Of a DNA stretch of 64,000 nt, positions 10,247-56,738 are shown in pieces. Numbering within the stretch: position 1 is the first letter of the stretch; each line of letters opens with the position of its first letter. Source of the stretch: Monosiga brevicollis MX1 (taxonomy: Eukaryota; Opisthokonta; Choanoflagellata; Craspedida; Salpingoecidae); NCBI RefSeq assembly GCF_000002865.3, contig NW_001865055.1, forward strand, positions 356,418-420,417, written 5' to 3'. The notes under the pieces are model-generated. The model was not told the DNA's origin, searched no databases, and saw only the letters and a list, made by a program, of their open reading frames with translations. The position numbers and the translations under genes were made by a program.

Positions 10247-11492
10247 TTAGCGGGCGCTGGTGCCAAACTGGCTAAAGAAGCTGTCGTCAAAGGTGTTTTC
10301 TTCCCGCTGGGTGGCGCGAAGTGTCTGTTCCAGTCGCAACGTTTGATTGATGGTGGCGGCCTCTTGCAGCTGTGCTTGACGAGCGCGTTGCGCTTGGCGA
10401 TCCATCAACAAGGCCTGACGGCTCATCTGGGCGCGCAGTTGGGCTTCGCGCTCTTCTTCCTCGCGTTGCTGTTGCCGGCGTTGCTGGGCTTCCTCGGCTT
10501 GGCGGATTTGGTCGGCGCGAATCTGAGCCACCTGTTCTGGAGTCATGCCTCGGTAGCGGTCTTTCAGGACCTTGCCATTTCGGCCAAACGCCTCTGTGGG
10601 ATCTTCGCGCATGAGGGAGGAGTCGATTTCAGCCTGCTTCTGTGCCACGAGTTCCTCGGCTTCATGGAAGCGTTCGCGGCGGCGAGCAGCAGCCTTTTCA
10701 TCGGCCATCTTGCGATTGTACTCCGCGGCCTCGCGTAGGCGGGCCCGACGGGCTTCGTCTTGAGCGTGCTGTTGTTGAAGGCCCAAGAGAGCTTGGCTGT
10801 GGGCCATGTTTTGCGCCTCTTCAAATTCGGCTGATTCGGCTTGGCGCTGGCGTTGTTGCTGTTCCATCTGTTGGCGAGCCCATTCACGCTGTTGGGCCCG
10901 CTGCAGGGCCTCGCGTTCAATCTGACTGTCATCCTCACCCTGGAAGATTTGCAGAGAGGATGGGCCAAGCCGACTCTCGTCGGCGCCGTCGCCGCGGAGC
11001 GGAGCAGGCTCGCGCCACACCACCGTTTCCTCACGATGGCGCTGTTCTTCCCATTGGCGTTGCTGTTCGGCGAGTGCAGCCTTGGCAGCCATGCGTTGCT
11101 GTCGCTCGAGCTCCAAAGCCAGCTCGGCGTGCGCAGCCATTTCGCGATCTACATAGCAGCAAACGGGGTGGAGAGGTGATTGGTTCGTCGGGTTTGAGGC
11201 AATGCAGCTGTTTGCGTGTGCGTGTGCGCGTGCATGTACGCGTGCGTGTGCATGTTGTGATGGTGATGGTGGGGCGAGAGAAGGGGTCAGGGTAAACAAC
11301 GGCCTGATGGCAACATACCAGCAGCCATCTCAGCTTCGCGCTCGGCCTTTTTCTGCTCGCGCTTTTCGATAATCTGTTGCTGCAGGGCCTCGAGATCGCT
11401 GCCATTCTTGCTAATTTTGGGGTTTAGAATACGCTGCTTGCGCTCTTCCTGGCGCTGGCGACGCAGCTGTATCGCGGCCTCCTGTGCGAACA
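10247..11492 (-). CDS. RIB43A-like protofilament ribbon protein (RIBC family), 5' end lost in a gap
   Basis: A Glu/Gln/Arg-rich, almost wholly alpha-helical protein. Two exons join in phase across the intron at about 11144-11318: KISKNGSDLEALQQQIIEKR ... EREAEMAA then DREMAAHAELALELERQQ. Family marks are SSLQIFQGEDDSQIEREALQ, the long coiled coil, and MTPEQVAQIRADQIRQAEEA. The end is SFFSQFGTSAR. RIB43A proteins lie inside the doublet microtubule lumen of motile cilia as microtubule inner proteins. The coding frame enters the 50-N gap at 11493, so a few tens of N-terminal residues and the start codon are missing or lie in the gap and CT tract. The divergent CAP-Gly gene begins about 0.4 kb away. 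Confidence 0.85.
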
Positions 11493-11877: not shown

Positions 11878-14800
11878 ATGATTTCCAGCAACGGTCACAC
11901 CACGGGCCCCGAATCGACCGGGCTTGCACCCTCGTTTGTCCATCAGGTTCACTCCAACCCCACAACTCTGCCTTTGCCACATGTCTGCGCCTTTTGATTC
12001 TCCCCAACCCCAGATGCAAGTCTGTCTCACGCTTTTATGCTAACGACGCAGCTGGCCAAGGCCGAGGCCGCTCTCAAGGCCCTCAAGACTGCCCTGGCCC
12101 AGCAGAAAAAGGTGGGTTCAAGCACCCATGCTCCTCTCAGCACCAGGGTTGCACTCATAATGGCCTTCTTTCTATAGCCCAAAAGGACGGAATTCGATCT
12201 TACGTGGCAGAAGCTTAGCATGCTCATGACAGCCCGCAGTCCTGTACAACGAGTATGCGCCTTGCACCTGCCTCTTACTCCCTTTGCTCCCCTCTCCCGC
12301 AGCCCTCCTTCCCTTCTCCTCACAGGCTCACGCCCACCTACACCTGTCCTTGCATCCTTGTCCAAATCGGCTCACCCGCCCAGCTCACACAAGAAGCTGA
12401 TACCCTGAAGCAGCAACTCAACGCGCTCAAAACCGACACCAAGCACCCTCTCGGTATTATCGTTTGAGTCATCTTGCCTCGACACGGTTGACCGCCCCGG
12501 CTTGCTGGGACGGACCTGTGCCCTGATAGCCTTGCGCTTTTTTTTTGCTCCGTGTCCCATTTCAGACGAGACCCAATCTCGCTGCATCGACGTGGCTCTT
12601 GAAGACGTCACTCAAGTTACCAACGCCTACGGTATTTGTCTTTGCCCAATGATACCCGACCCGTTCTTGTCCTCATGCGCTCCTCTTCTGAGCCGATGGT
12701 CATCCCCGCCTCCTGCCATCCATCATGTTTGTCGTTCTCTTCGTCTCATATCAGCTTCCCCTCTTTTCTCTTTTCCCTCGTATCGATACGTCTGCCTCCC
12801 ATTAGCCTCGGCCATGGACCCTCAAGCCGACCAAGCACAGAGCCACAAGGGTTCAGAGCCCCAGGCAAACTCCAACGCCAGCTCACCAAGCCGGGATAAA
12901 TCACCACCCCGCTCGCGCACCCCCATCTCCAGGGAAGCCCTTCGCCTCAGGGACGAAAGCTTTGAGGAGTCATCCGTGGGTCTTGGTCAAATGTCGCCCT
13001 CCATCCAACGTTTCGCCAGCTCCATGTCCGATGAAAACTTGTCCGACGGTATCCCGGAACGCGAACACGAACACGAACACGAACGCGAGCTCGAGCATGG
13101 CCAGCACAGCCAGCACGACCCCGATGAGCCCAACCCTGTCGATCTTGGCTCCAACGTACTCTCAAGTGCCACCGAGCGGCGACATGTCCTCCAGCATGCC
13201 CGCACCAGCCCCCCGGCCACCCCACTCGAGCTTGGCACCCGCGCCCTCTTGGACAAGAACTCTGCTTGTATTCTTCGATTTGTGGGCACCGTGGACAGCT
13301 TCCAAGTAAGCTACACGCTACCCCAGGCCCCGCATGCCCCGCACGCCGAGCTTGTCACGCCACCATTCATTGCTCCCAATCGCGCTCCCTTTTAACATCC
13401 CCTCCCCCTCCCCTCCACCACCTCACACTTCGCAGGGTACCATGTACGGCGTCGAGCTCCTTGATGCCAAAGGCAATACTGATGGCCAATTCGAAGTCAG
13501 TCAAACTTTTCTGAAACTAACGTACCCCAAAGTTTCATCTCAAATCTACCCCCAATGATATCGTTTCCGTGCACTTTCCGCTCCTTCGGCTTGTCTCACT
13601 TCTCAACATACTACTCGAAGGGACGTCGCTACTTCCGGTGCGCCCCAGATCGGGGTCTTTTTGTTCGACCTTGGCGCCTCAGTGCACTTGATGCTGCCTC
13701 CTTGATCGTGCGTCGCCCCAGTCTCCGCTCTGGCTGCACTTGTTCAATTTTCGACTTTTGATTGGTTGTTTCACTTGCGTACCCTTTGGTGCTGGAATTG
13801 TATCGCGAATCACAGAGCGATGGTTCACAGGGCCTTCGTGAGCCACAAGGGCGTACTCGAGCCAAGTCTGACGTGGCCATTCCCAGAGCCTCACTGATGA
13901 CCGTTGAAGAAACAGGTAGATTGAGCTCTGCTGATTCTCAACCCCTTTTCGCAGCATTCATCCCTACCAACAACAATGCAGCCTCGATTGCTTCTACTCT
14001 TGTGCATTTGTGTCGTGGCGAAGCTGAGCGCCTTTTGCCCAACTCTGAAACGTAGAGGATCGCCGTGCCTCACTGGGGGACCTTAGCTGCTCGACCTCAC
14101 AAGACTATTACGGCAATGTCAAGGCGGTGCCCAGCATTGTGCTTACTGGCGCCGGCGGCGAGGATTCGGTTTTGGTGGACGGCAAAGCTTGTGGAAGCAC
14201 CATCGGCGACGAGGATACTGCCCGCTCCGCTGGTGGCTCTCCGCCCCGGTCTTCTCCCAAACATTCCGAGACCAAGACACCAATACACCACCACTCCTCG
14301 CCGCGACACACCCATTCGTCACCAGGCAACAGTGTGCCCACATCGCCTGATAAGTCGCCTCAAAGGAACAACGCTCAGATTCCTAGCCGTGCCACGCCCC
14401 CAAGTCATGCAGCCCGTTTGCGAGATCAAGAGTAAGACATTTCCGCTCGTATTCCCCTTCCTCCACCACTCCTTCTCGTCCTCTTATTTACCGCTAGCCT
14501 CGAGGTCTGACACCACTTCCGTCCCCACGGCAGAGTCAAAGGTCCCCTGCAAGCCATTCTACGGCAACTGTCAGAAGCGAGTCGCTTGCCTTACTCCCCA
14601 TCCAGCTCCGACGGCGCTGAGACACTCGATGGGTTGCAGTTTCTGGTCGATGACTTGGTTCAGCAGCGAGACGACGCGCTCAGTCGAGCCGAAGTCTTGA
14701 CCAATCAGGCAGTTGACAAGGCCGTGCAAATTGCCAATCTTACACGCAGCCACCAAGAGCTCACCAACAACTTGGATAGCCATCTCAAGCATCTGAAGCA

Positions 14801-17800
14801 AGTCGAAGCCTCGGTTGTTGAGAAGGACGAAGACCTTCGCCTCTGCAAGGAGCACATTACTGTTTTGGAGGACAAGCTTGGCGCTCTTGACTCTGAAGGC
14901 AAGACGTTCTCAGCCCCCCCGCCGGCTCGCTATCAACGTGAACTGGACGCACAGGCTTCGCACATCTCCAAGTTGCGCATGGAGAACGAGGAGTTGAGGA
15001 AAGAACTCGAGGCTGCCAAAAATCTGACCCAGAAGGTGGACAATCCCTTGCGCCCAGAACTTGAGGCAGCTCAGCAAACAATCCTAAGCCTTGAATCTCA
15101 GCTCGAGCAAGTCCGGTCTGTGTCTTCCTCGCAGTATGCAGATCGCCTGCGCCAGGAAAATGACCGCCTGCGACGACGACTGGCCGCGCTCGAGACGGGA
15201 AACGCCACTGCTAACCAGCCGGCATCATCGATCACTTTACCAGACACAGAAGACCGCGCCACTTCTTCACCCCACCCCTCCAAACAGGGCGCGTCCGACC
15301 CTGCTGCCGTCGCGGCGCGTGCAATGTCTCCAACGCATAGCACGCCCTTGCGCAGTGTAACCTCTTCACGACCCCGGCCGTTTATGTCGCCTGCGCTCAT
15401 GCGCATGGAGAAGGTGCTCAATGATTCGATTGAGAAATCACTGCGCACCGAGTATGGTATTCGTCAGCGTCGCGCCGAGCTGAGTCAAAGCGGTGCAAGC
15501 GCGGTGGCCTCGCCCAACGTGACGCGAAATACGGCGGATGGGTCCAGTCCATTTCAAACACCGGTCGGGGTTAGCGCTGGGTCACCGCACTTTTCGACTG
15601 GGGCGAACGGTGCTGCAAGTGCCACTGGCGAAGCTGCATTGCGACAGCGTTTGCAGGAGGTCGAAGCACGCAACCGACACATGGAGCGCGAGCTAATGCA
15701 GATGCGCCTCGAGCGTGCAGCTGAGCATGCAAGTCTATCAGTGACCGCAACAGGTTCCAAAACCGAGGGCAAGGATGACTCGTCTAACGAGCCCCTCAAG
15801 GCTCAGTCAAGCGGTGATGATCGCAGCATGGACCAGAACGATGATTCTGTTCTTCAGCAGGTGCGGGGGTTTCGGCGTCACTCTCCGGGCTCTGGTCGCC
15901 CGACCGAGGTGCTACCAGGTGCACCGGCCCATCAAACGTCGACAACCGGTCCAGACATGGATGCGGCCGTTCAGGACACCGTCTCACACGGCACCGCTTC
16001 CATGCCCAATCAAAGTCAGGGGGCTTCCTTGACCATCGAAAAGTTGGCACAGCTCGAATCTCAGGTGGACATGATCTCGGATCAGGCATCTGACAAGCCG
16101 TCCAATATCAATGGTTGGGCTTCTGATGTCGCGCGATCGCGGGCGGATTCGGATGATGTTCGTCCCACTGGCATGGATGAGGATGAGACCAACGCTGGCG
16201 AAAGCTCGCGCAGTGGCTCCATAGACATTCGGGCAGCTCGCGAGTCCCATGGCTCCCTGGGATCAGCTGGGCGCAGTCGCCTGGGCTCCAACCATCGCTT
16301 CAGCGGTTCGCTGCTTGTGGATCGCAAAATTAGTCAAGACAACGCCTCCACTGATTCAGAGGGTGCGGCTAGCTACGTCCGGGACGATGAGGACACCGAG
16401 GACGATATGGAGAAACGGCAGCGCTCGTCCTTTGTTGATCTAAACGATCCCGATGCCTACTTTGAGAGTGAGACTGAGGAGTCCGAGGACGATAAAATGC
16501 ACACACGCACGCTCGAGTTGCTCGCTCAGTTTCACCAGCCGGCTTCTCTGGACGTGCTTGGCCTGGACGGTGCCAACAGTGTAACGCGTAGCGCCCTGGG
16601 TGTAGATGACGCAAGCGTGACGAGTTTGTCTCGCACGAACAGCGACGCTATTGATACCCTCTCAGTTCGGTCAAGCAGTGGCCGCCCCAGCTTGCTGGTG
16701 GATGAGGCTTCGCTTGCCTCACGTCGGAGCTCTCTTGAGAGCGTTCTTTCCTTGCATGGTGTTGCACACTTGCACGACATGGTTTGCAAGTGCCCCCGGC
16801 GTCCAGGGGACTGTCCGCGCCTGCAGGCGCTGCTCACACAACCCGGCGAACAGGATCGGCTGCATCGACAAATCTGTCGCCTCAAACACGTTGCTACTGA
16901 CTGCCCGACGATGCAATCCATATTGCAGAGCATGGATATTGCCATCGCACCAAGCCCAGCTGGGGCCACAGAGACGACGAGCAGCCCATTGGTCAACAAC
17001 GTGTCTGTGCACGGGCGTAGCCGCCCAAGTCCTTCTGTGGCTCGGCGCCAACACAGCTTGGCAGAGTCAGGCACCGGGCCGGACACGGAGCCGGGTAACC
17101 TGCTCAGAGCCGGTCAGCCTGATGATGATGACGAGGACGGCATTACTCCAACTGGCACTCCAACGGGGACGCCTACTCGAGGCAGCTTTAGTACCGGTGC
17201 CGGTGGTGCCACTCCCGTCCATACAAAGCGCGATGATGTCGACTTTGAGGACGACGAGGACACGGACGAAGAAGAGGCCAATCGCGAAGCCCTCTTGGCA
17301 TTGCAATCTCGATCGGGCAAGGGCCGCAGCCGTATCCTTGGCCCGACAAAGACCAACAACTCAGCGACAGGCTCTTCTTTCGGACTGGCAGGTGAGGAGT
17401 CGGAGACAGAGTCGGAGAGCAGTCACGCAATCGGCTTGTCGCGGCTTCGCCAGCTCAGGTCCTCTGGTATGAACTTTTCTGAAGCATCTTCTGTGATGGA
17501 GCATCATCACGAGGAATCGGAGGAATCAGGCTCGGAATCGGATGCAGGCGACCGCCTCACTGAGCTTCAGCGCCTCAGCAAAATTCAACTTCGACGCCAA
17601 GACTCGGCCACCACTGTCAACAGTGTGCAAACCGACGCATCAAAATCGACCGACCTGCCGCTGTCGCCCGAGCCACTGCGAGCCAATCGCCCAACTTGGT
17701 GGGAGCGGGCGCTGACTAAAAGCAAGGAGCGTAACCTACAGAAAGCCCTGACTGGTGAAGGTAATGACACCGTTGATAACTCTGAATCTTCGCCCCGTCT

Positions 17801-18479
17801 CTCTCGTTTTCGGTAAGACCTTTAGGCTCAGCCGCTGTGCATTGCTTTGGTCCCATTGTGCACTAAAACCTTGTGCTCACGCTTCCTGTCTTTGACCACA
17901 AACTTTTCCTTGAAAGTTCCATGGTGTTTGCTGCAGCCATGGCGAGTAAAGGCACGCGTGCTGTTATCGAAAAGCGTGGGCAATATCGGTAAGTCTATTG
18001 CACGAGCCTGGATTCTTGTGTTTGCGGCGCCAGCCTCTCTCACTTGTCATGCCGTTCATCACTTCCGCAAAACAAGGTCAATCCATGATTACAACTCCGA
18101 GTCGGAGCAGATGAGTGAACCTGAGGAGTTGGAGGATGATGGCGGTGCTGAATTGCTACGCCGGGCAGCGGCTGGGCCAATGCGCCGTTCCAGCTCTCGC
18201 TCTTCAAATGTGGGCACGAAGCCTGGTGCTGCAGGCGAGGGGACTGGTAAAGGCAAGCAGGGGTCTCAAGACGCATCTGCGGGTCCGGCCACCACCACCG
18301 CTGCTGCTGCTGCTGCGACACCAGCGGTCGTCACACAAAATGCCGGCCGACTGTTGAGTGCAGCCAAAACGTTGTTTTGGGTGCTAGCGATTGTATTGCT
18401 AGCCTGCCTGGTGATTGGTGGCATTGCAGTTGGCAGTCTGCACTTTGTTATCCCCCACCTCTACATTCCTTTTGTCTAA
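11878..18479 (+). CDS. CAP-Gly, coiled-coil protein with a C-terminal transmembrane segment
   Basis: About 1,700 residues. Five short 5' exons encode helical sequence (LAKAEAALKALKTALAQQKK; LTQEADTLKQQLNALK) and join in phase to the exon at 12806 (SAMDPQADQAQSHKGSEPQ). A CAP-Gly domain follows over three exons: ILRFVGTVDSFQ, GTMYGVELLDAKGNTDGQFE, GRRYFRCAPDRGLFVRPWRL. The usual GKNDG signature reads GNTDG. A large exon (about 14531-17812) gives a coiled coil (LQFLVDDLVQQRDDALSRAE onward), a long Ser/acidic low-complexity region and a Cys/His motif (HDMVCKCPRRPGDCPRLQAL). Two more exons end in a hydrophobic helix, TLFWVLAIVLLACLVIGGIA, then VPHLYIPFV-like residues and stop. CAP-Gly domains bind tubulin and EB-protein C-termini, so a membrane-to-microtubule linker is inferred. 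The start could also be the in-frame ATG at 11743, and the five 5' exons could be a separate gene, although their phases fit. Confidence 0.8.
18369..18452 (+). other. Predicted C-terminal transmembrane helix of the CAP-Gly protein
   Basis: The codons for TLFWVLAIVLLACLVIGGIA and the following GSLHFVI form a strongly hydrophobic stretch of about 25 residues. Only about ten residues follow before the stop, so the protein would be tail-anchored. Confidence 0.8.
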
Positions 18480-22176: not shown

Positions 22177-22795
22177 TTACCAGCGGACAAGTCGTTGCGC
22201 CAGCAGCCCGGCAGTAAAGGCCCCGGCGACAAGGGCAAGCGTCGGCCAGAATTGACTGGCAGATTTCACGTCACGAGAAACATTGGCCTCATGACCACTT
22301 TGCGGGGCGACAGGTGTCGTCAATCGGCCTATTTTCCCAGTGTGAAAAGAGAAAGAAAAACAGAAACGAAGAAACGAGATGGGATGAGTGGAGTTGGGAC
22401 CGGGGTAGGGTCGTGAAAGGGCAGATCGAACGTACGCTCGGCCAGCTCGGCGTGGCGCCGTGACATGGTTTCATGTACAAATGCCTTCAGGTCCTCCAGC
22501 GAGTGCTCAAGGTGGTGGCAGCGACGCGGCTGCGTTGTCAAGCCTGGCAACAGGGTCCGCATGTGAGCCCGCGATGAACCAGTCTTTATTTCTCTAATAT
22601 TTTGTTTGTTATAGTGTGACTTGAGGGTGAGCTTACCATCAAGTTGTGGAGGCAAGTGTGGCTGCATGGAGCGTGCCTCCTCCAAGCCCTCGCCAAACTT
22701 GGCTGGATGGGCCGTGGCCAAGCAGATGAAGGGCCCTGCAAGCTGGTCACGAAATCTACGCATCGAGCCAGCAGTCAGGCAATCTGGGCACACGT

Positions 22796-22850
<55 letters not shown>

Positions 22851-25800
22851 GCCGCCGCCACCAGCACCACCACTATACTGCCATGGCAGTGTCATCACGT
22901 ACTGTTCCATAGCAAAAAGACCAGCAGCTGAATGTGGACAGAGTGCATAGCTGCGCTGCTTCTTATATGTCGCCACAATGCCTGTACATCCCCGCACATC
23001 CCAGCATCGTCAGCGCTCAACTTCAGCAGGAGTGACCAGAAACAAAACCAGGCACATGCCCCCTGACAGAGGCTACAACCCATGTCGGCACATTGCAGCT
23101 AACCTTGGATGTCATCGTCAGAGGCACGGGCAGCCCCAAAAAAGGCTTGTGCTCGTTGAAGCAATCGGGCTTGATCAGCTCCAAAGTCAAGACGCCCAGT
23201 CAACTTGACCTTATCCATGACGGCTATTGGCCACAGTTAAGCACCGACGATGATGATGCAATCAACATCAACAAGACTGTGAGGAAAAGGGGGAAGTAGA
23301 ACGAAAAGAAAAAAAAGGGGGGGGGGGGGGGGGCATCGGTTGACAAAAGCAGCAAGCCAGCCCCGACTCAGGCGTCGCTGACCTTTACAGCGAACACTGT
23401 CACCATCCAGCAGCCAGTACACGTAACGCTCAAAGTTGGAGGGCACCACAATGTCCATGGCCGGTGCTGCTCGCGAGGCACAAATGATTGAATTAGAATG
23501 GTCATGCACTCGCGTTTTGGCGTGCAAGAGTGACAAAACGTACCCAATGATGGTTCCACCGGACGCGACGTGTAGTCGCCGTGCGCAAAGTAGCGATACA
23601 AGATGTCATTGCGGTTGGTAGCGACAACAAGGCGCGACACGGGCAAGCCCATTTGTGAAGCATAAAAGCCTGCTAGAGCGTTGCCAAAGTTGCCAGTTGG
23701 TGTCACGAAAGCCACAGGGGGGAGGGCTGCTGCTTCAATCTCCGACAAGTCCAAGTAGCGAAAGTAGGCATAAAAGTAGTACACAATCTGAAAGCAGCCC
23801 ATGCATGAAGAGTCAGCGAAGCATGAGGCGTTGAGCAGATCCCGGGCGCCTAGTCGGGGATGGGACAAGGCCACTGCTTGCTTTTGCAAGAGCTGTTTGC
23901 ATGCAGGGTGCATCGCCATGATCCTGTGCGCACCTGTGCCAAGATGCGAGCCCAATTGATGCTGTTGACCGCGGCCAGAGTGTGACGTTGACGAAATTCG
24001 GGGTCATTGAAGCATTCCTTGACCATCGCCTGGCAATCATCAAACGTGCCCTTGACGGCCACATTGTGCACATTGTCGTCCAAGACAGTCGTCATCTGCG
24101 ACAAAAAAAAAAAAAAAAAAGGAAGGGTGAGGTCTTGCATTTGTACGTCAAGCTTTTGGGCAATCCATTCCAAGCTCGATGCCGTACTTGCGCCTCTTGG
24201 ATGGGTGCAACGCGGCCTTCGGGGTGAAGAATGATTACATCCACGTTCGCCTTGCCTCGCAAGCCAAATATGGCGGCGCTGCCTGTATCCCCCGAGGTGG
24301 CACCAAGGACAGTGATGTGCTTGGGCTTCTCGCTCTGCCACCAACAGCAGCAACAAATCAGAAAGGTGTAGGGGTGAGGTTGGCGTGCCAATGATCACTT
24401 GACCAACGCTCGCATGCTTTGCAAGCAATGGCAGACCTGCGCATTGCGACGTGACAAAAAATACTCAAAAAGGTTGCCTACGAATTGCAACGCCACGTCC
24501 TTGAAAGCGCAGGTGGGCCCGTGAAACTGTTCGAGCAAGTACACACTGCCATCCTCTGAGAACTGTGAGAGCATAGCAGCCCGAAGCGACTGTGAGACGA
24601 TCAAAACTCGAGCCAGCGATACTACTTTGTTTGTCAATATCTGATCTGTCAAGATATGACGAGTGGTCGACAAATCAGGACTTTGCAAACAGCCGAACGC
24701 ACCTCAATGAGAGGCGTGACGTGCGCCGAGTCAAAAGTAGCGTAGGAGCGCTGTACCAGGGCTTCAAGCGTGCCCGCAGGTATCTCGTTCTGACCAATAA
24801 ATTTCCCCATCACCTGCGTGTATGAGAGCGAGGGAGGTTATGAGCGCGGAACATGGCGGTGTACCCGCTGTGAGTCTGCTCAGAAATCAAAATTAACCTC
24901 GACGGCAAGTTTGGGAAAGGAGAGTCGACGCCAGGCGCGCATGGTCTCTTCGGTGACTTTTGGGATCTATAGCCAGTCAAGTAAGGGCATCACAAATGAG
25001 AGTGGCGAGGGAGAAACCACAAGGCGACGGCAGGTCTTCAAAAGGGTCGGAGTGCGGCTTGAGCAGAGATGGGCCCACCTGGTTGGGTACATAGAGACCA
25101 CCGTCTGGAGCCAGGCCAGCCATCACGGCCTCTTCAAAAGACACGGCACTTGCTGTGGATGGGCAGGACAATGAAAGAACGCCAGGCGAAGGCAGGGTAG
25201 ATGCGGGGTGGGTGTGACCATCATGGCCTGTGACGCACCAGGGCCACCGCGCGTGCTGACGTAGCTGGGGCAATCGCCCTGGGCAGCCAAGCCTGGCCGC
25301 GTGATGGTTTCGGTGACTGCGACAACGTGGGCACCCACGGCCGTCGGGCGCGTGATGCGGACCGTGCCATCGACACCGTTGGCACGAGCGGCGGCAAGCA
25401 TGGCATCCGCCACTTGACGGTCACGTCTTTCCAGGGTGCTCTGGGCGTATACGTCACCGCGGGCGCCAACAGTCAGGGCCATGATACTGCTGCCTGCACC
25501 AGACAAGAATGCTCCTGATAGATGTTCCCATGCAACCAAGACAAGCAAGAGCATGAAAGAAAGCAATGACATGAAAGGCTTTGGGCTCGCATTTGTGAGC
25601 GCCATTGACGGCTCGCTCGAAAAGCGTGAGATGTATGTTATGTCGTAAAGTGTGATTGTGTGTACCTTTGGCCCCGGCGTCAAGCGCAGCTTGAATGACG
25701 GGATAAAGCGCAGGCATGACTTTGGCGGATCCGCGAACGGGCTGATGGAGTCGATCTTCCGTTGCTAAGAAAAAATATTCAAAATCAGGCCAGCACGAGG

Positions 25801-27015
25801 AATTGTGTGCGTAAGAACATGCGATTGTGCAACGAAGCTCGAAAGCAGGGGGTCTGGTGATACAATGACACTGATATACCTGCGCGCAAGGCTTCGTAAT
25901 CACGGGTGAGGATGCAATTGATGAGCAGAGCGGCGCGGCCAATGTTAAAGATGGCGTCCTCGCGAGAAATCTGGCAGCAGAGGGGCTGATGAGCGCACAG
26001 CTTCAAAACAAGACATGAAGAGCTCAGATTGGAGAGTGCATGCCATGGGGGGCCCACCTTGTCGGGCAACATGGCGCGAGCTTCGTGGGTAGACATGGGC
26101 ACATTGGGCGTGAGGACTACGCACTGGAGGCCAGCAGGTACTGGGATACCAGTCGTGTCCCACCGTTCACCATTGTTGACGCCAATCTGGAAGGCCATGC
26201 GAAACACGTAGCGAGTCGTGAAAAGATACAAAAGGCCTGCAACATTATACAAACGGAGGGGCGAAGGGGAGGCATTTGGGGAGAAACATCAGCTTGGCAA
26301 TCTACCTGGAGGTTGCCATAGATGCACGGGGAGAGGTTGTCAATGTGTCCTTCAATTTCGGCAGCAGCCTGCAGCATTTCTTCCTGCCCAGCAACGGCAA
26401 GTTCTTTGCCGGCAAGGACAAGACCAGCAAGCAAGCCGGAAACGATGGCGGCTGAGGAGGAGCCCAAGCCGCTGCCAAAAGGGATGTCATTGCGGCAAGA
26501 GTACGCCAATGTCGGCATGGGCACGCCAGCCAAGCGGAAGGCAAGTTCGGCGCCTTTGACCACCAGATTCTCGCCATTGCGCGGCAGCACATCTGCCCCC
26601 TCCCCCTCAATGTGGATCGAGAACCTAAACGCCCGTGCACAGGATGAAGGAAAGTGAGCGCGAGCGTGTTCAACTGGCCTCAACAGAGGATCCGAAAGGG
26701 CTGGAAGGGGGTTGGGCTTCCGGGCGGACGTGGCTGGGGCTGGGACGGCACTGACGCGCTGGCAAGCTCAACGGTGAGCTCATTCCAAATGTCCACAGCC
26801 ATGCCTAGGCAGTCGTAGCCACTGCCCAGATTGGCCGTCGTTGCTGGGACGCGCACCGTGACCTTGCTTCGAATGGCTGCACAAAATCAAGTGGATGGTT
26901 GGAAGCATGCAGCGCATCCAATGTTTTAGCAAGTTCAAACAAGACTAGACTTCCCGGCCTTGGCGTGTCGTGAGCCTCCTGGCGCGCAATGCGATAACTT
27001 ACGAGTTGCGGCCAT
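22177..27015 (-). CDS. Homoserine kinase-threonine synthase fusion (bifunctional) with C-terminal hydrophobic tail
   Basis: One gene of about 17 exons gives both last steps of threonine synthesis. The N-terminal half is a GHMP-family homoserine kinase: [20 protein letters not shown], the ATP loop [50 protein letters not shown], and [20 protein letters not shown]. The same exon (about 25245-25500) reads without a break from [16 protein letters not shown] into threonine synthase at [12 protein letters not shown], joined in phase to [20 protein letters not shown]. Then come the PLP-lysine region [74 protein letters not shown], and [20 protein letters not shown]. After the normal end ([13 protein letters not shown]) there is an extra tail of about 60 residues closing with [20 protein letters not shown] and LVRW, a possible tail anchor. 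Starts MAATPIRSK. Confidence 0.95.
22799..22850. repeat. (CA)n microsatellite in a threonine synthase intron
   Basis: About 26 CA units at the edge of an intron of the fusion gene. A second intron (23317-23333) has a 17-base G run. Confidence 0.9.
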
Positions 27016-27865
27016 GCTGTCGGTGGTGGATCCAACGTCGACGCAGGCCGATGTCATCAATGCTCAGTCTGCAACCAAGCAGCGAGCGACCGTGAGTCAG
27101 CCTTTGATCGAATGCCCCATCCATTCCATTTGACATGTAAATGCAAGCACAGCACAGCACAGCACAGCACAGCACAGCACAGCACAGCACAGCACAGCAC
27201 AGCACAGCACAGAGCAGCCATACTCCGTCTCTCTTCCCCCAGACAGTCTCTTCCGGGCACTACATGCACCATCACCATCGCTGCTACACGCCCCTCCCCT
27301 CCTCCCGGCGCAGCCACTGACCTCGCTCGAGCCACAGAGAGAGTCAACAACAACAACACTCCGACGTCGTATTGCAAAGCAACAGAAAATTGTCTGACAA
27401 GGGGGTTGATGAACTGAACATTGAGGTTTTTGTTGGGTATCAGGTACTGATAACGATAGTTAATGTTGTATCATATCTACTTATTGTAGGAAGATCAAAC
27501 TTGGGTTTGTGTAGCTATTTAGTTGGTTCGTGAAGACATGAAGCAAAGTCTCATGTTACTTTATGCTGAGCTTATAGCAGTATTTGCAGCATGCAGGCAG
27601 TACAGCAACAATGTCAGCAGTGCCCCGTCGCCAAGCAAAACAATGCCACAGCAACCAAACTCTCACTGCATTCGCTCCCCCAAAGAGGGTTCATCAATCT
27701 AAACTACCACTCTTCAATTATGATATTTGTACAACATAAAGTGTGATATACATTACAGTATTATAGCAGCTAAGTATTTTATTTTTTATTTTTATTTGGG
27801 TGTTCCACTGCACAAAATGCCGCCCACCAAATTGGTCCGCCGCCCCTTGTCTCTCGCGCTGAGCC

Positions 27866-41853: not shown

Positions 41854-44175
41854 TCAAAGCGTAACCACACGCTTGAAGAAGCTTGACGTCATGGAACGAC
41901 TGTGCCGCCGTGCAATGGACGGGGCAGAGTTACGTGGGGCGCGATGTGCATCGATCAGAGGATGAGGGGGGTGAGCGCGACTGAAGGATCCTCGTGCGCC
42001 GGGAGGACGAAACCAGGGTTGCTCTGCAGCCAAGAATCCCCAAATGTCATCCAGCGAAGGTCGCTCTGTCGGATCAGGGGCCAATATGCGCAGTAGCAGT
42101 TCGTGAAGGTCGTCGGTAATTAGAGCCAGGGCACTGCTTGGTCCGGGAAGACGTCCAGTCACACAATAGCGGTGATAGTGAAGGTCGCTGGGGCGGGCGC
42201 GGTCCCAGGGAAGATCGGCAAACAGCACCGCATACCAAACAAGTCCCAGAGCCCAAATATCTTGCTCGGCGGCACATGGGGCACGATGAAAGGACTCGGG
42301 AGACATGTACAGTTCGGTTCCGGGGATGAGACGCTCGAGATGAATGGTGCCTTGTTGGACGGAGGAACCAAAGTCATGGAGATGCAGGTTGCCTTCTTCA
42401 TCGAGGAGGCAATTCTCTGGCTTGACATCACCATGCACCAAGTCAGCTGCATGCACCTCTTGCAGGGCCAAGACCAGTTGAAGCATCCATTGTCGCGCTT
42501 GGCGTTGTGTGACCTGATGCAGGCTTTGGGGCTTGATGCGATCAAAAAGGGTGCCACCGGTCATGTGCTGAAGCACAATGAAACAATGCTTGTCCTCTTC
42601 GAAATGCAGGCGCATGACGCCTAAATATCCAGCATGGGCCAAACGTTGATAGGCACGGAGCTCATTCTGAGCAGGCTGGCCTGGAGCACTCAGTAGTACG
42701 CCCTTGATCACAACAGCATCGTCGGTGAGCGTATCGACGGCAAAGTACACCGTCGAGTTGCGTTGGGACGCCAGGGTCCCAACCACAGCAAAACGCCCGT
42801 GATACAGAGTCGTTCTTGCGTGTGCATTGCTACCAGCTGACGCCACGGTCCCAGCAGGCTCCGATGCTGTGTTGGCCGAGGCTGTGTCGCTTGAGTTTTT
42901 GCGCCTCAACTGGTCAACGACGCGAGCCGCAGAAGACAAAGTGTTGTTGAGGGGCAACGTTGACCTCGTCGAAGATGCATCACTCGGGCTTTGAGCTTGA
43001 GTTGCTGAACCATGCTCCTCGCCCGCAGCATCGTCAGGCAAACGTTCCGACAAGCTGCTGCTGGAGGAGGTTGAGCAAGATTCTGAAGCGTCGAGATCTT
43101 CAGGACCAACCACCTCAGCCATACTGCTGATGCTGGCTTGCCGCAGCTGCGCCTCAAGTTGTGACAAGCTTGCCGCAACGGCACCCTGGTAGAACTTTTC
43201 TCGAGCTTGCCGGCGGCGCGTTAAAGCCCTACTTGCATCATTGTCCGTCCGGTCTTCCTGATCAAAATCCTCGCTATCGTCTTCCATCTCCGGCTCTTCC
43301 TCTTCCGACCTGTGACTGGAAGTATCACAATCTGATTCGATATCCTCAGCCTCGTTGCTCTCGTCTTCCTGTTCCTGCGTCAGAGTGTGACTTGGCACTA
43401 AAGAATTGTTCCCGAAGTCAGCCTTCTTTGAGATTGAGCACTGGATATGGCCGCCAGGTGGTGAAATAGCAGAGGTGGTAGTATCAGCCAGGTCAGAAGA
43501 TTGCCTGTGGACGGTGTTCTTGGAAGCACCTTGGCGGGCGCTGGCTTCGACCTTGAGCTGAGCTGCATGTAAACGGCGCTCATTGCCGAGCTGAGCAGCA
43601 GCCGCCAGCTGAAGCTCCAATGAGGTTGGGTGCTCCAACTCCGACTCGATGGGACCGGCCACTTCGGCAATTTCTGCGAGGTGGTGGGGCTGGTGAAGCA
43701 AAGTGGCTCGCTGGTTCCATCCAACAGGGCGATGACGCCGTACAACGTGTGCGCTATGGCGCCGGGGTTGTTGGGGTGCCACGGGTTTGGCGGGCAGGTG
43801 GTGGTGTGAGCGTGAACGCCCTCCCTGTCGAATAAATGGGACGTCTGTTGCTACATTGGAGCCCGCAGCGACGGCGCCATTGGATGACCCGGCTGAAGCG
43901 GTGGCAATGGTCGGGGATGGGAGCTCAAGCAAAGGTGCATCAAGAGCACTAGTTGGGGGCACGGCTGTCGCATCCTCGGAAGTCCTCGGGGTTGTGCAAA
44001 AGCGGGCCAGGCTCTGATATTCAATGTAGCCATGGCAGTATTCCTGTGAACTACGCTTGAGGGCCGGTGAGAGCTTGGGTGGTTTTGCACGTTGAGCAGG
44101 TGGCTGCAGTTGTTGCTGCTGATACTGTTCTTGCTGCCCGTGCACGGGAGCGGGAACGACCCAGCGTTCTGTCAT
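41854..44175 (-). CDS. Single-exon Ser/Thr protein kinase with atypical glycine loop and catalytic loop
   Basis: A 773-residue intronless frame. Residues 1-450 are low complexity and look disordered: Gln-rich start, acidic stretch (EEEEPEMEDDSEDFDQED), Ser runs. The kinase domain (about 455-735) has the lysine strand DAVVIKGVL, hinge FIVLQHMTGGTLFDRI, catalytic loop LVHGDVKPENCLLDEEG (HGD in place of HRD), LHLHDFGSS with intact DFG, LYMSPESFH for APE, and DIWALGLVWYAVLFADLPW. The glycine loop GTLASQRNSTVYFAVD has lost the usual GxGxxG. Asp, Lys and Asn of the catalytic loop remain, so activity is plausible. HGD kinases lack the arginine that senses activation-loop phosphorylation. The C-tail is basic (ARRHSRSMTSSFFKRVVTL). 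I cannot assign a subfamily. The lack of introns is unusual here. Confidence 0.9.
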   Translation of the reverse strand: MTERWVVPAPVHGQQEQYQQQQLQPPAQRAKPPKLSPALKRSSQEYCHGYIEYQSLARFCTTPRTSEDATAVPPTSALDAPLLELPSPTIATASAGSSNGAVAAGSNVATDVPFIRQGGRSRSHHHLPAKPVAPQQPRRHSAHVVRRHRPVGWNQRATLLHQPHHLAEIAEVAGPIESELEHPTSLELQLAAAAQLGNERRLHAAQLKVEASARQGASKNTVHRQSSDLADTTTSAISPPGGHIQCSISKKADFGNNSLVPSHTLTQEQEDESNEAEDIESDCDTSSHRSEEEEPEMEDDSEDFDQEDRTDNDASRALTRRRQAREKFYQGAVAASLSQLEAQLRQASISSMAEVVGPEDLDASESCSTSSSSSLSERLPDDAAGEEHGSATQAQSPSDASSTRSTLPLNNTLSSAARVVDQLRRKNSSDTASANTASEPAGTVASAGSNAHARTTLYHGRFAVVGTLASQRNSTVYFAVDTLTDDAVVIKGVLLSAPGQPAQNELRAYQRLAHAGYLGVMRLHFEEDKHCFIVLQHMTGGTLFDRIKPQSLHQVTQRQARQWMLQLVLALQEVHAADLVHGDVKPENCLLDEEGNLHLHDFGSSVQQGTIHLERLIPGTELYMSPESFHRAPCAAEQDIWALGLVWYAVLFADLPWDRARPSDLHYHRYCVTGRLPGPSSALALITDDLHELLLRILAPDPTERPSLDDIWGFLAAEQPWFRPPGARGSFSRAHPPHPLIDAHRAPRNSAPSIARRHSRSMTSSFFKRVVTL

Positions 44176-47034
44176 GACTTTGGTCTTGCGCCACTCTTGT
44201 GGAGCTTGATTAGAGGAGAGAGAAGCAAGAGCAAAGACAGTGGAGGTGAGCTATCGCCATGTGCACGAGGCAGACGGGCCCAGAGTTGAGGTTTGGTCTT
44301 GTCTTGGAACGACAGGGATACAGAGCAAGCAGAGAGTGATATCACAAGTTTTGAGCATGCAAACGCATGCCAGTGGGCGTCGTGATCAATGGTGGAAGCA
44401 AGAGTCCAGGTTGACCGGATGGCGGAGGAATGAAGCGGAGGAAGCACAACAGTTGGAAGAAGAAGTTGTGGGCCAGCTCACCTCAGACGTGTTCCGGCAA
44501 AAAAAAAAAAAAAAAAAAGTGGGGGAAGGCTTGAGCTCTCGCCTTCCAAAAGATTGAAGGGGATTTGGAGATAAGACTAAAGGCAGACCCAATCTGTCGC
44601 TCGGCAAGCAACCGAGCTGTCGGCCTTTTGCTTCAAACGACCAGGCCCGCGCCAGGCGCGATCGTTTCGTCGATCACAATGGTCTGTTAACCCTCGTCCT
44701 TCTTTTGAAACGGTTGGGGGGGGGGGGGGGGGGGGGGAAAAAAAACTCCAAAAACCCCGCCCCCGGAAATGATTTTCTTAAAAAAAAACCAAAAAGAAAT
44801 CCCCCCCCAAAACCCAGGAGCAAAAAGGGGATCNNNNNNNNNNNNNNNNNNNNNNNNNNNNNNNNNNNNNNNNNNNNNNNNNNGTTGGGGGGGGTGGGGG
44901 GGGGGGGGAAGAGAGCTCGGAAAGCACGGCAGCAGGAAGTGATTTGCTGAAAAACAAACGAGAATGAAGTCCCGTCCAGAAACCGAGGAGCAAAGAGGTG
45001 ATCCTTCCGGGCAGGGGCCAAGCATGCCCCAATTGCACCCCGAGGCAGCGCTTGTGGGGGAAGGAGCGGCGTTGAACGGCACAGTACAAAAGGGGAGTTG
45101 CAAAAGGAAATTGAGGACCCTTTGGAAAGAGGACTGTCGGGGAGAGGTGTGCGAGTTAGATTGAGGCAATCCAAGTTGGTGTGCACTGATTCAATGCGTT
45201 TGAGGCGTGGTTTTGCAGAGCATCGGTTGAACGCAGCCGACGCGCGCTTGTCCTGAGATCAACAACCAACGCCCTGATCGGGGATCAACACGATTCGCAC
45301 GACGATCCATCTGCCCATGCCTCTGCCGTTTTTTCCAAGAAAGCTCAGAGTCAGCCAGCCACACACACACCACACACACACACACGATCGCAACGCCTAT
45401 GACCATGACCATGCGTACCATCCATCATCTACAGCGTACTATCTACATCCATTACAATCTGCATGCGTGTGAAATTCAACCCATAGCCATTGCTTAGGCC
45501 CCATACAGATGTGCAGATGACGGATATTGGTCTACCATACACACTGCATACGTATGCATACGATACCCCCTGAGATGGGTACGGACGGGTACGGTGTATT
45601 CTTGCAGTCGAAACGACTTGTTTTTGAAGAACTGTTGTACGCCAGCTATCGAGTTGCTGTCGAGTTGGGCGGGGGTTTGCGGAGCTGGTTTCCCGTTCTG
45701 TCCTGCAAATGTGAGCCAAACAACCCAACACCACTGTGTGCTTGTTCCGACATGAAGTGTCCAACACGTGGCCCACAAAGACAAAACGGCAGCGACCGCC
45801 ACACAACAGCACACATAATCGATAGCGACGTCACGACAGTGCTGCTTTTTTCCTTAGAAACAGCTGCGAGTTTGGTGCGTAGGGTGCAGACGATACACTG
45901 ACGTCAGCGCGAGTATGGCATTGGTCTGGTCAAAGCGTGGTAGCGAAATCTCCATCTCGGCGCCAAAGTGAAGCGCACCCAACTTGCTGTTGCTGCAGGT
46001 GCCTTCACATATGACTGGCAGAAGAAAATTGAATTCCTGTTGCTCCATTGTGGCAGTCTCTGTCTCTGGGTCAGTCCCTGCCCCGTGGTCTCTGCGCTTT
46101 ACCTCCATTGGCAGCTGTCTATGTACCGGATTTGGTCAATCGGTTTTGCTTCAGATGCACAGCCATCGCCAAATACAAGAATAGCGAGGAATAGCTCCGA
46201 ACATAGCAGCAATTCCAATTGTTCATTTATTTTTTTTCAAAAAAAAAAAAGAGGGGTGCACCGCGTCATTTTTGCACCAGGCCCACCCCTTCTCCCCACT
46301 GCTGCTTGCTCGCCTTGACCACATAGAAGCGTAACAAACGACACACCTTTACTTTTGTGTGAAAGAAAAATGCGCCTCGTGTGCAGAAGTCACATCTTTG
46401 GTGCTGGGGATATGTGGGGCGCGTGTCATGGTGCCAATGACGTGGAGCAAGTATGCCTCATACAACCAAGAGGAATTTTGTGGAAGGACTCAGATATGTG
46501 ACGACGGGTGCTTTCTGCTGTGGCTGCTGCCCCCCTGTCGATGCCTCTGCCTGGCAGGTTGGAAGACCCAACGAGCACGCTCACATTATCTGTTTTCTCT
46601 TCGTCTCTTCCTTTACAGCTAGTCAGGCACAGCTGCAATCTCAGAGTGATGGTTCTCGGATCAATTGAGAACTGGCGGCATGAGCGCCAGCTCGATACGC
46701 AAGAAGAAATTAATGAGGAGAAGGACTAGTTCGCACGCATCACAGCGCATCACGTTCAAGGGCCTTTTCTGACAGCGAGACAAACAACAAACACCGTTTC
46801 GCTTATCCACTACTAAATGATCACGCAACACCATCACACAGGCCCTGAATCTTCAGCACACTTCTCAGGCAATAGATCAGCTACAGCACCACACACACAC
46901 ACACACACACACACACAGCTTAACCGACCAGAGCAAACCAGACATGACGCGGTCACGCTGTCAGCTCTGCGCCACCACGAGACCACATCGCCAGAAAGAA
47001 AGCCCAACCAACGATGGGCCAAAAGCGAGCGCGC
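44176..47034. other. Long spacer between kinase and dynein genes; no gene recognised
   Basis: It contains an A run (44500-44518), a G-rich artefact and 50-N gap (about 44700-44910), (CA)n runs at 45360-45385 and 46889-46918, and an A run at 46239-46250. Several frames of 60-120 codons exist on both strands, but none shows a domain or linked exons. The right 500 bases are 3' flank of the dynein gene. Confidence 0.45.
44834..44883. other. Assembly gap (50 N), probably not a real gap
   Basis: Fifty N. The sequence to its left (about 44710-44833) reads like a low-quality, homopolymer-smeared copy of the sequence to its right (about 44884-45003): both run from a G run through GGAA(A/G)TGATTT to an AGGAGCAAA block and GATC. 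Confidence 0.85.
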
Positions 47035-53000: not shown

Positions 53001-56000
53001 TTCCGAGGGCCAGGCTTGAAACCAATCGATCGTGCAGCAGTTGACGAGCGAAGGGAACATGCGTAAGCGATCGCGGAAGGTGCTGCCAATGGGGCTAAAG
53101 GCCAAAATGACGTGCAGGTTATCACGACACTGGCTAATAAAGAAACTGTAGAGCTGCATGGGTGTGAGATCCACACCCGGATTGACCGCTTGCGCGGCAC
53201 TGCGCACACCCTCGCAGATCTCTCCCTTTTCGTCAGGAGCGAAAATATTGGCTACCTCGCCCGAGTTCAGCAGCGAGTCAATGTCCTCAAGCATCTTGTT
53301 TGACTTGAGCTGCGAGTCGGTGAGCAAGAAGACAGTCGGCCGTCCCTCCATGCCGGCCTTCTTCATAACGCGCTTCACGTCTTCCGCCCATTCCTCGTTG
53401 CCGTATTGCTTGCTGATTTCCGGCTGCACGAGCGTGTAGTCAGCCATGTGCGCAGCGAGGCGCGTGGTGGACTGCCGTCCTGAGCCGCCGACGCCCACAA
53501 GTAAGGCGTGGCCGCCATCCTGCTTGAGAACGCGAGAAATGCGGCTGAGGTGCTCAAGAACGTAGCGGAAAATGACCAAGTCCATTGGCGACTTGTTGAC
53601 TTGGTTGTACTCATCCAAACTGCTGCGAACGATATCCTTGAGGGCTTCAAGACTGGAGACTTCGTCGTAAGGGCGTGGCGAAGATTCCACCTCCATGAGG
53701 TCACAGAAAATAAGAGAGCCAAAGGCTTGACGGTCTACCGTGGTCTTGTCGCCGCTATCCGGAAGGTTGGAGAAGACAGCATCAAAGCCCAGCTTAAAAT
53801 GGGACTTGACAGTTTCTTGCAAAAGGCCAAAAAGCCAGTCGTGATCCTCCTCAAAGACGAGGCGATCACCAAAGACACGATACACCTCATGACACCAGAG
53901 GCGGCAGAGTTTGTTTTTGTCTCCAGCGCGGTGGCCATCCATGAGGAGGACGCCATTGACAACGCGTGAGAAGTCACGCAGGTTGAAGGTGTAGTGCGAC
54001 TTGGCCGGTGTTGGTAGCAGGCTTTGAATGGCACTCTTGTAGACGTGCATCGTGGCAGTCACAACGTTATTGCTCAAGCCCTGCAGCTCCATTGAGAATT
54101 TGCTCTCCTTAAAGGCCCGCGAAACAATCGTGCTAAAAATGCGGGTCATGGTATCGTCGTCAAACTCGGTAATGCCCACGGTGTTGACGTGGCGCAGCAT
54201 GCGCGTGGTGACGGGGTTGCGACCACCGCCTGGCGGACCCATGGCAGCTACAAAAAGAACGTCCACCAGATCCATGCGCGAGGTGTCCCAAGATCATACC
54301 AGAAGCCGTGGTCTAGGAACTGCCGCAACAGCTCAATGGGCGGTTGAGCTCCATATTTCTCAAGGGCCGGCATGTTGAGATCGTCGACAAAGACAACACA
54401 CTGCTGGCCCATGCGTGGCCCATAAATGCCTTTGCGGCGTTTGTCAAGCTTGGCCAAGACCAAATCCTGTGTTTGGTTGGCCGTGGTCTGTGCCGAGTAG
54501 GTGATGAAGAGAGGCTGGTAGGTATCCTCCAAGCCGTTCATGAGCTTGTCCTTAACGTACACGGACTTGCCTGTGCCCGTGGGGCCCACAAAGAGCAAGG
54601 GCACGCGGTTACGCACGCACAGATCCATAATGTACGTGTAGCGAGCCGTGTCCGTGGTCGGCACAATGGCATCCTTCAGCTTTTGGCCCGGGCGCAAATG
54701 CAGTTCCGGATCAATGGTATGCATCCAGCGGATCCACTTGCCCTTGCCCTTGGCCTCAAAAAGGTAATCATACACGGTGGCCTCGTCTGGAACGGGTGAG
54801 TCAAACTTGATATTGCTGTTCTCGAGTTCAGGATGCGTGCCAGCGACGAGGCTGCGGACAAACTCGTCAAACTTGACGCGGCCGTCAGTGTCCGTGGATG
54901 CGCCAAAGGACCAGACAAAGCACCAGACAAAGAGACCCTTGGTCCACTGTTCCAAAATCTTTGCATTCTTCTCTTCGGCAAAGGGCTCGGCCATGCTGCT
55001 CTCCAAAAGACGCAAGAGAGCATGCACCATCATCATCTCCTCCACCACGACGTATTGCTTGAGGTGCTTGCGCACAAACTCAAGGCCGACCGGGACAAAG
55101 GCGTCAAAGAGCTGCTGAAGAACATCCTTGAGGGGCTGCTGCACAAAGTCGGGCCGAGCCTGGAGCCAGGAGTCAGTATGTGGCCGCCAGCCGAGCTGTG
55201 AGGGCTCGAGGTAGATCATGCCACAGCGCGAGACGGTGGCCGGTGAGGCCTGCGACAAATCCATTGTCTCAAAGATGAGAGACATTGTGTCAGAGAGGGC
55301 GATGATTTCGCCCGACATCAGGCAGAGCTTCTTGTTGTCATCCAGCACAGTGTTCATGTTCTCAATCCAAATGGCATCAATGGGCCCATCAAAAACGACC
55401 CACTTGCGCTCCGGACTCGTGTCACTGGCCAGTTGACGGAATGTAGTGGCCAAAACGCCATCAGACCACTCGTGTGAGACTGGATCAAAGCAGCCGTAGA
55501 GTTGGCCCATGGTAATGGACTTGGGATTGATGATGCGATAATACACGCCGCGGTGTGCGATCTCCCCGTCCACCTCTTCGCCCTCGTGAGCAGCGGCGAT
55601 GCGGGTTAAAGCCGCAGCCAACACTTTCAGAACGGCCGTTTTGGCCGCGAACGGTTCGCCCACCAGCATAAAGCCATGGCGCACGATCATCATCTCGTAC
55701 ATCTGCGCAAGCTTTTCCAAAAACAGGTCAGTGGCCTGGAGGTTAAACTCAACGCAAGCTTCGCGAGCTGCACCAAAGAGCTCATCATAGTCTGTCTTGG
55801 GCAGCTCAATGCCGGGAAATAGATCGGAAATGATGCCGTGAAACAGCGGCACGTCGTGGCTCAAGAACTTGGGCAAGTTGACGTCAACAATAGCACGAAG
55901 AATGAGGACGCCCTCATCCTCGTCAGGGAACTGCAGCTTGAGGTTACCGGCGGCCGAGAGCACGGCCTTGACAGCACGCATGCCGTAGTCATAGTGGAAC

Positions 56001-56738
56001 TGCGACGAAAGCTGTTCAGAGCAGAGCTTGTAGGTCGTGGTAATCTTAATGGACATGGGTCGGGCGTTTACAAACCCGAACGAGTACAGCATAATCTCAG
56101 CAATCATGGCGTAATCCGGCACCATCATGGCCACAGTTCGGAAGAGCACCTTGAGGTTGTCGGGAAGCTCCGAGCGCCCGGCATAGCCGGGGTTCATGGT
56201 AATGTAGCTGTTGCACTTGGCGTTGAGGTCGAGTTCGGTGCCCTCAAAAGCGAATCGCTTGAGACCGACCTCAACGGCCCGTTGAATGGACTGAATCTGT
56301 TGTGCGACCACACTGAGCACCTCAAGGTCAATGCGGTTAAACTCATCAAAACAAGCCCAGGCACCGGCTGAGGCTAAACCCTTGAAGAATTTGCCCATGG
56401 CCTTGTAGTCGAGACCTAAATCGTCGTGGCGCGCACGGCACATGGTCAGCAAGCCCCGGTGTGAATCTCATTTCGACGGGTCAAGCAGAAAGAGACTGTG
56501 ACTCACCATCGGAGCAGTTGAAAACCACACATTGGATGGCCAATGCCTTGGCCAAGTCCTTGACCGTTTCCGTTTTGCCCGTACCAGCTGGGCCCTCGGG
56601 AGCGCCGCCAAGATGCAGGTAGTAGGCGCCAATCAGAGTTCGATAGCACCTATAGCAAATTCCCCGGAAAAAAAACAAACAAGGCAAAAAATGAGAACGG
56701 TCGCTGTCTGCCAGACGACACAGCGACCCGGCATAACC

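Follow-up and report, generated by a model that had tools for sequence, protein, structure and literature searches.

Families of threonine synthesis are kept in choanoflagellates and have been lost from animals, according to a 2018 eLife paper (PMC6040629), the main text of which does not contain the word homoserine. Acquired genes of the aspartate-derived pathway are discussed in a paper on gene transfer in Monosiga brevicollis (2013, PMC4046809) and in one on Salpingoeca rosetta (2021, PMC7971027), and a further study, in which M. brevicollis was searched, uses neither the word fused nor the word bifunctional (PMC4523565). No account of a fusion of homoserine kinase (HSK) with threonine synthase (TS), or of an anchored TS, was found among the matches listed from the open-access literature, a collection that mostly leaves out subscription papers and whose supplements were unread. 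A protein of S. rosetta (P0003 in the numbering of retrieved proteins used here) is public under one half only, as "threonine synthase" at NCBI and "Homoserine kinase" in UniRef; its domain architecture is visible in the entry, and no text describing it as a fusion was found among the same matches.

The gene described here lies in a window of 64,000 nucleotides from M. brevicollis MX1 (NCBI RefSeq assembly GCF_000002865.3, contig NW_001865055.1, positions 356,418 to 420,417), "the window" being the whole stretch of DNA analysed. On its minus strand, from 27015 to 22177, a single spliced gene of 20 exons encodes 880 residues, which comprise a complete HSK followed by a complete TS. The first-pass annotation of the window had proposed that the two enzymes are fused in one gene, and this is borne out by a single open frame in exon 7 and by relatives that include records of the transcript-assembly type; the outer limits it gave, 22177 and 27015, fit the stop (22177-22179) and the ATG start (27015) exactly. 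The gene probably makes a bifunctional, tail-anchored HSK-TS as one polypeptide, the result of a fusion that took place once in the lineage of this gene. Its parts are as follows.

22177-27015, minus strand: HSK-TS fusion gene (corrected splice model; Pfam on the spliced protein).
27015-27003, 26876-26756, 26624-26306, 26186-26058, 25970-25880, 25764-25666, 25514-25239, 25152-25079, 24966-24898, 24813-24703, minus strand: exons 1 to 10.
24562-24437, 24334-24188, 24095-23934, 23787-23544, 23466-23383, 23223-23104, 22981-22903, 22755-22637, 22543-22436, 22328-22177, minus strand: exons 11 to 20.
25321-27015, minus strand: HSK part, residues 1-322, exons 1 to 7 (TIGR00191 thrB; PF00288, PF08544).
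25239-25514, minus strand: exon 7, with the HSK end, the linker and the TS start in a single open frame (frame and splice model).
25264-25320, minus strand: linker, residues 323-341, without methionine (junction alignment).
22436-25263, minus strand: TS part from YVSTR (residue 342), PF24857 ending at residue 818 in exon 19 (TIGR00260 thrC; PF14821, PF00291, PF24857).
22177-22328, minus strand: last exon, coding the C-terminal extension (GTACGT donor at exon 19, pyrimidine-rich intron, in-frame join).
22180-22251, minus strand: predicted tail anchor [24 protein letters not shown], residues 857-880 (hydropathy and basic tail, same feature in relatives).

The 19 introns are all of the GT-AG type and are 77-159 bases long. 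A gene model of 872 residues was rejected after alignment with P0001, P0002, P0010 and P0011, by which one missed exon and one wrong acceptor were found, and their correction gives the 880 residues. The homologue searches, the tail counts and the first, the careful and the initial concatenated trees were made with the 872-residue model, the HSK part and last exon of which are identical in the 880-residue model. The splicing of the M. brevicollis gene is a prediction, drawn from its sequence and from its relatives. Two simple repeats accompany the gene, a cagca pentamer repeat directly upstream of its start (about 27145-27212) and a CA repeat within intron 17 (about 22800-22850).

Both enzymes are represented by entire domains. 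On the 880-residue protein, Pfam matches to GHMP_kinases_N (PF00288), GHMP_kinases_C (PF08544), Thr_synth_N (PF14821), PALP (PF00291) and THR4_C (PF24857) each exceed the cut-off, and the NCBIfam models, run on the 872-residue protein, reach 218.1 bits for thrB (TIGR00191, cut-off 168.25; the HSK part is unchanged in the longer model) and 236.8 bits for thrC (TIGR00260, cut-off 167.1). In sequence searches, the HSK half matches the solved HSKs 6cyz, 5wat and 4p52, with which its glycine-rich loop GLGSSSAA and its LSGAGSS motif align, and the TS half matches the solved TS 1kl7 and 4f4f. The lysine of the FKD motif in TS binds pyridoxal phosphate; in this protein it is residue 455 of the 880-residue model, which aligns with yeast TS 1kl7. 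Chance is excluded as the source of the pairing, because both halves exceed curated cut-offs and relatives have the same order and junction. The HSK half would phosphorylate homoserine in an ATP-dependent manner, and the TS half would turn the O-phosphohomoserine into threonine.

The junction itself is compact. The peptides [16 protein letters not shown], at the end of HSK, and YVSTRGG, at the start of TS, stand in the same minus-strand open frame of the same exon, 25514-25239, and no stop separates them, in agreement with the stop-free exon at about 25245-25500 and the in-phase intron after it that had been noticed on the first pass; the donor after exon 7 is in phase 1. No new start lies between the domains: methionine is absent from the end of HSK (residue 322) to the beginning of TS (YVSTR, residue 342), so that no separate TS start exists at the junction. 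Elsewhere, 7 of 35 junctions, all of them within the 14 choanoflagellate-type or INCI-type rows, have a methionine at most three residues ahead of Y-x-S-T-R. Since the stand-alone TS P0029, P0030, P0033 and P0043 begin at this same place, the junction methionine is read as a scar of the old TS start, which would have been lost in M. brevicollis.

The methionine just before the TS start in 7 of these 14 rows would also suit the making of two proteins from one locus, either by cutting of the fused product after translation or by re-initiation at the old TS start, and part of the linker is of low confidence in the predicted structure of the S. rosetta protein. Such a division of the product is very improbable, however, given that the linker is free of methionine not only in M. 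brevicollis but also in P0001, P0003 (S. rosetta), P0004 and P0007. The model of P0003 (68 rows) has a mean predicted local distance difference test score (pLDDT) of 92.4 and a predicted template modelling score (pTM) of 0.66, with linker residues 329-334 and residues 855-857 under pLDDT 50 and a helix at 858-881, which is the hydrophobic C-terminal end. Its halves match the folds of TS 1kl7 (TMt 0.86) and HSK 6cyz (TMt 0.85). Two confident domains are thus joined by a loose linker, their mutual placement is not predicted, and the model for that reason neither supports nor refutes the channelling of O-phosphohomoserine between them that the first-pass annotation had proposed. A single polypeptide may offer no more than equal dosage, co-localisation and a raised local concentration of this intermediate.

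The fusion is not confined to M. brevicollis. In the homologue searches, the best 120 matches of a capped set of candidates were taken from each and 322 proteins were gathered in all. The search with the whole chain gave, among the matches listed, at least nine fused proteins, P0001 to P0009 (54-69% identity, 91-100% of the query); a more distant fused set consists of P0012, P0013 and P0015 to P0027. Of the 322 proteins, 39 contain both halves, with the window protein, some fragments and an isoform included; HSK comes first in 36 of them and TS in three. The records of P0001, P0002, P0005, P0006 and P0007 have names typical of transcript assemblies, and those labelled m., g. or comp appear to be choanoflagellate transcriptomes. 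A search for the same domain order in other choanoflagellates and holozoans had been proposed by the first-pass annotation; the order recurs in S. rosetta, in the choanoflagellate-type records and in other transcriptome or metagenome proteins, and Capsaspora has two genes. An assembly or annotation artefact was considered and discarded, its probability being negligible, as the junction lies within one exon, is common to the relatives and recurs in independent data sets.

Names are given by the records themselves for Capsaspora, Sphaeroforma, S. rosetta, Thraustotheca, Balamuthia, Lithocolla and fungi. Other names, namely Creolimax, Corallochytrium and Ichthyophonus, as well as Pigoraptor and an ichthyosporean in the trees, are assigned from label prefixes and taken to be right, and the INCI label of P0008 presumably stands for Incisomonas. 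In Capsaspora, TS (P0081) and HSK (P0126) are separate genes, and they are also apart in what we take to be Creolimax, Corallochytrium and Ichthyophonus; the Sphaeroforma TS P0043 and the fungal TS retrieved stand alone. The first-pass annotation had stated that the two enzymes are encoded separately in yeast and plants; separation was observed for both of them in Capsaspora and, on the TS side, in the fungi. Composites of another kind were also seen: the Capsaspora TS P0081 is followed, in the same predicted protein, by a methyltransferase-like region, which makes it another holozoan TS composite, and in Ambispora P0101 a TS is joined to a stretch named guanosine bis(diphosphate) pyrophosphohydrolase in UniRef, which may be a gene-model merger.

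Each half was also placed on a tree, as had been suggested on the first pass, with a clear outcome for HSK and a permissive one for TS. The first trees contained 74 rows for HSK and 70 for TS, chosen from the 322 proteins. For the careful HSK tree 69 of the 74 rows were kept (P0028, P0032, P0246, P0247 and a second Capsaspora row were dropped), and for the careful TS tree 52 of the 70 (bacterial rows, P0246, P0247, four yeast-like rows and P0242 were dropped). In the former, the 25 fused halves form a single clade (support 100/99); the HSK-only P0121 also lies inside it, adjoining P0008, and is probably a fragment. In the latter, 24 HSK-TS rows fall within a clade of 29 (100/100). Constraining the 24 fused TS to group together is not rejected by the approximately unbiased (AU) test (p 0.257), nor is a constraint on the choanoflagellate-type and P0012-type rows without P0008 and P0009 (p 0.163), and the TS tree thus allows a single origin without demonstrating one. 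A concatenated tree of 26 rows, 21 of them fused and five from species with separate genes, recovers the fused rows as one clade (100/99), and its repetition with the 880-residue model gave the same main groups.

For the fused clade, a single fusion appears to be the simplest reading, which HSK supports and TS does not contradict. Two observations weigh against it. Five TS-only proteins (P0030, P0045, P0048, P0064 and P0092) lie inside the fused TS clade, and P0032, a divergent EukProt record with the order HSK-TS, lies outside, beside Balamuthia on long branches in the 74-row HSK tree and with its TS half outside as well; if this long-branch placing is right, the order HSK-TS has two origins or more. 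Both enzymes are likewise in one chain, in the reverse order TS-HSK, in P0028 of Balamuthia and in two metagenome proteins of bacterial appearance, P0246 and P0247. That these three and P0032 stem from the same fusion event was ruled out by their position outside the fused clade, and for the same reason they are read as independent fusions, with the caution that long branches make their placing uncertain. Pattern scans with a few exact peptides gave weak evidence of absence: those of P0247 matched 43 stretches in genome_contigs, none of which was confirmed, and those of P0015 had no match in viral_contigs.

The fused clade reaches past the obvious choanoflagellates to P0008 and P0009, P0012, P0013, P0015 and others, which raises the question of transfer. 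Choanoflagellates may have acquired the fusion from another eukaryote or have given it to one, a course of events that is compatible with the preferred reading of a single fusion and is somewhat less likely than not. P0008 and P0009 lie inside the choanoflagellate-type rows in the HSK tree (96/86) and beside them in the concatenated tree (90/92), where the P0012-type group is beside both and where a grouping of P0008 and P0009 with P0005 and P0006 stays acceptable at the 0.05 level (p 0.062). P0008 may be contamination, however, and the fused clade adjoins holozoans with separate genes in both trees, with modest support (80/75 for HSK, 96/91 for TS), as vertical descent predicts.

The last exon codes [24 protein letters not shown], a hydrophobic segment at residues 857-880 with a five-residue end of net charge +2, which is probably a tail anchor and does not figure in the first-pass annotation. 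In a hydropathy list of TS-containing proteins, 18 of 147 passed, and 16 remained after exclusion of P0020 and P0031, which are not counted as anchored because both leave the TS sequence early (P0020 half-way). The 16 are the window protein, P0002 to P0007, P0009, P0010 and P0011, together with the stand-alone TS P0033, P0039, P0043, P0048, P0064 and P0065. Every one of them has a stretch of 16-33 residues without charge and, behind it, an end of 2-6 residues that carries a net charge of +1 to +3, and charge was not a criterion in picking them. A fixed rule of hydropathy and a basic end picks out 11 of 39 fused rows (with P0020, which is discounted, among the 11), 6 of the 143 proteins with TS only and none of the 140 with HSK only. 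Tail anchors of the mitochondrial outer membrane and of peroxisomes combine moderate hydrophobicity with a basic end.

Several observations count against an anchor of this kind, or against its being old. The segment of the window protein, with a mean hydropathy of 1.62 over 17 residues, ranks as the weakest among the 16, and 7.1% of the other 40-residue stretches of the same protein are equally hydrophobic; in windows of 19 residues the HSK core even exceeds the tail (1.83 versus 1.53), although the core is taken as soluble because this domain has crystal structures. Read-through of the last intron would give a different C-terminus. The record of P0001 lacks the tail, which is present only in its isoform P0010. 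On the TS tree, where 16 rows were scored with a tail and 32 without (four with unreadable C-termini set aside, P0001 scored by P0010), at least seven changes are required, so that neither the age nor a single origin of the tail is established; it may be easily gained and lost.

The protein could accordingly be a plain soluble bifunctional HSK-TS, in which the hydrophobic C-terminus stems from a mis-spliced exon or forms a buried helix and has no anchoring role. The moderate hydrophobicity of the segment, the sequence-based prediction of the last exon and the absence of a tail from the P0012-group fused proteins with a readable C-terminus (that of P0008 is garbled) are in keeping with this, but it is the rather unlikely option. 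Such a segment, which always lies 2-6 residues from the C-terminus and has a basic tail behind it, recurs in all nine choanoflagellate-type genes with a readable C-terminus (in one gene through the isoform only), and the stand-alone TS of Sphaeroforma and, by label, of what are presumably Creolimax and Corallochytrium are tailed as well.

If the segment is a tail anchor, as is preferred here, it would keep both enzymes on the surface of an organelle, facing the cytosol, with the outer membrane of mitochondria or the peroxisome as the likeliest site; insertion and choice of membrane are suggested by hydropathy and charge. The fusion would have occurred once, when the HSK stop was lost and the frame was joined to the beginning of a TS in which the anchor was probably present already, both the single origin and this order of events being suggested by the comparisons above. 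A wider scenario, in which the final steps of threonine synthesis take place on a membrane in unicellular holozoans, is put forward only tentatively. In it, TS would have been anchored to an organelle first; HSK would have been added later, in a lineage to which choanoflagellates belong, and the resulting membrane-bound unit would have been inherited, or perhaps passed between eukaryotes, as one gene.

Profile searches covered the genome of 39.5 Mb in 57 contigs. A stretch of the Unc18 gene in this genome matches the M. brevicollis protein 2xhe_A without a difference except at the point where two exons were joined, in agreement with the choanoflagellate origin. Thr_synth_N has one match in it, within the HSK-TS gene, and GHMP_kinases_N has five, the best of which is the HSK-TS gene. 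A second HSK or TS may be present in the genome, as one of the four other GHMP matches could be an HSK and the PALP search would allow for a TS that lacks Thr_synth_N. Matches for homoserine dehydrogenase and aspartate-semialdehyde dehydrogenase were found, and an aspartate kinase-like stretch reached 131 bits, which is under the cut-off (a partial protein was given), which suggests that the rest of the threonine route is present in the genome. The aspartate kinase-like stretch (L030 1345-2289) and that of the aspartate-semialdehyde dehydrogenase (L028 949-2004) have arginine-rich starts that by eye resemble mitochondrial presequences, and the upstream pathway may be mitochondrial.

The other long frames of the window concern different functions. 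On the minus strand are a dynein heavy chain exon at 54248-56467 (AAA_6, AAA_7, AAA_5 and lid domains), flanked by long minus-strand frames that look like the same gene, a RIB43A-like ciliary protein at 10247-11329, and a long open frame at 41854-44250 with a protein kinase domain in its final third. On the plus strand, an open frame of 1101 codons at 14511-17816 has no Pfam match.

The gene therefore joins two standard enzymes in a chain that is common to choanoflagellate-type genes and some other eukaryotes and is probably membrane-anchored. The first-pass annotation regarded the retention and fusion of the two steps in an animal relative as informative about pathway loss, which holds only in part. 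Animals are reported to have lost the pathway (PMC6040629). The timing of the fusion relative to the animal split is another matter, as it cannot be read from animals, which lost the pathway, and the fused clade extends beyond the obvious choanoflagellates. If the fusion predates the split, a single gene loss would remove both steps in animals. Threonine is an essential amino acid for them owing to the loss of this branch on the animal stem. That close relatives of animals have both steps encoded by a single gene, with a product that is probably membrane-bound, offers a specific condition that can be tested and a simple way in which the double loss could have come about. The fusion and the anchor are also a shared character for placing eukaryotes of uncertain identity, and in S. 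rosetta they concern a public protein that is filed under one of its halves only.

Compared with known systems, the first half of the chain corresponds to ThrB of the GHMP kinase family (TIGR00191), the yeast counterpart of which is presumably THR1; the complete domain is shared, and here it forms the first half of a longer protein. The second half corresponds to ThrC with Thr_synth_N (TIGR00260, yeast 1kl7), again as a complete domain, which in this case lacks its own start and bears a hydrophobic C-terminal tail. Fungal TS differ from the TS of the window in this respect, as none of the 10 on the TS tree has the tail. The S. rosetta protein P0003, with 62% identity, shares the domain order and a short linker with the M. 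brevicollis protein and ends in a similar tail.

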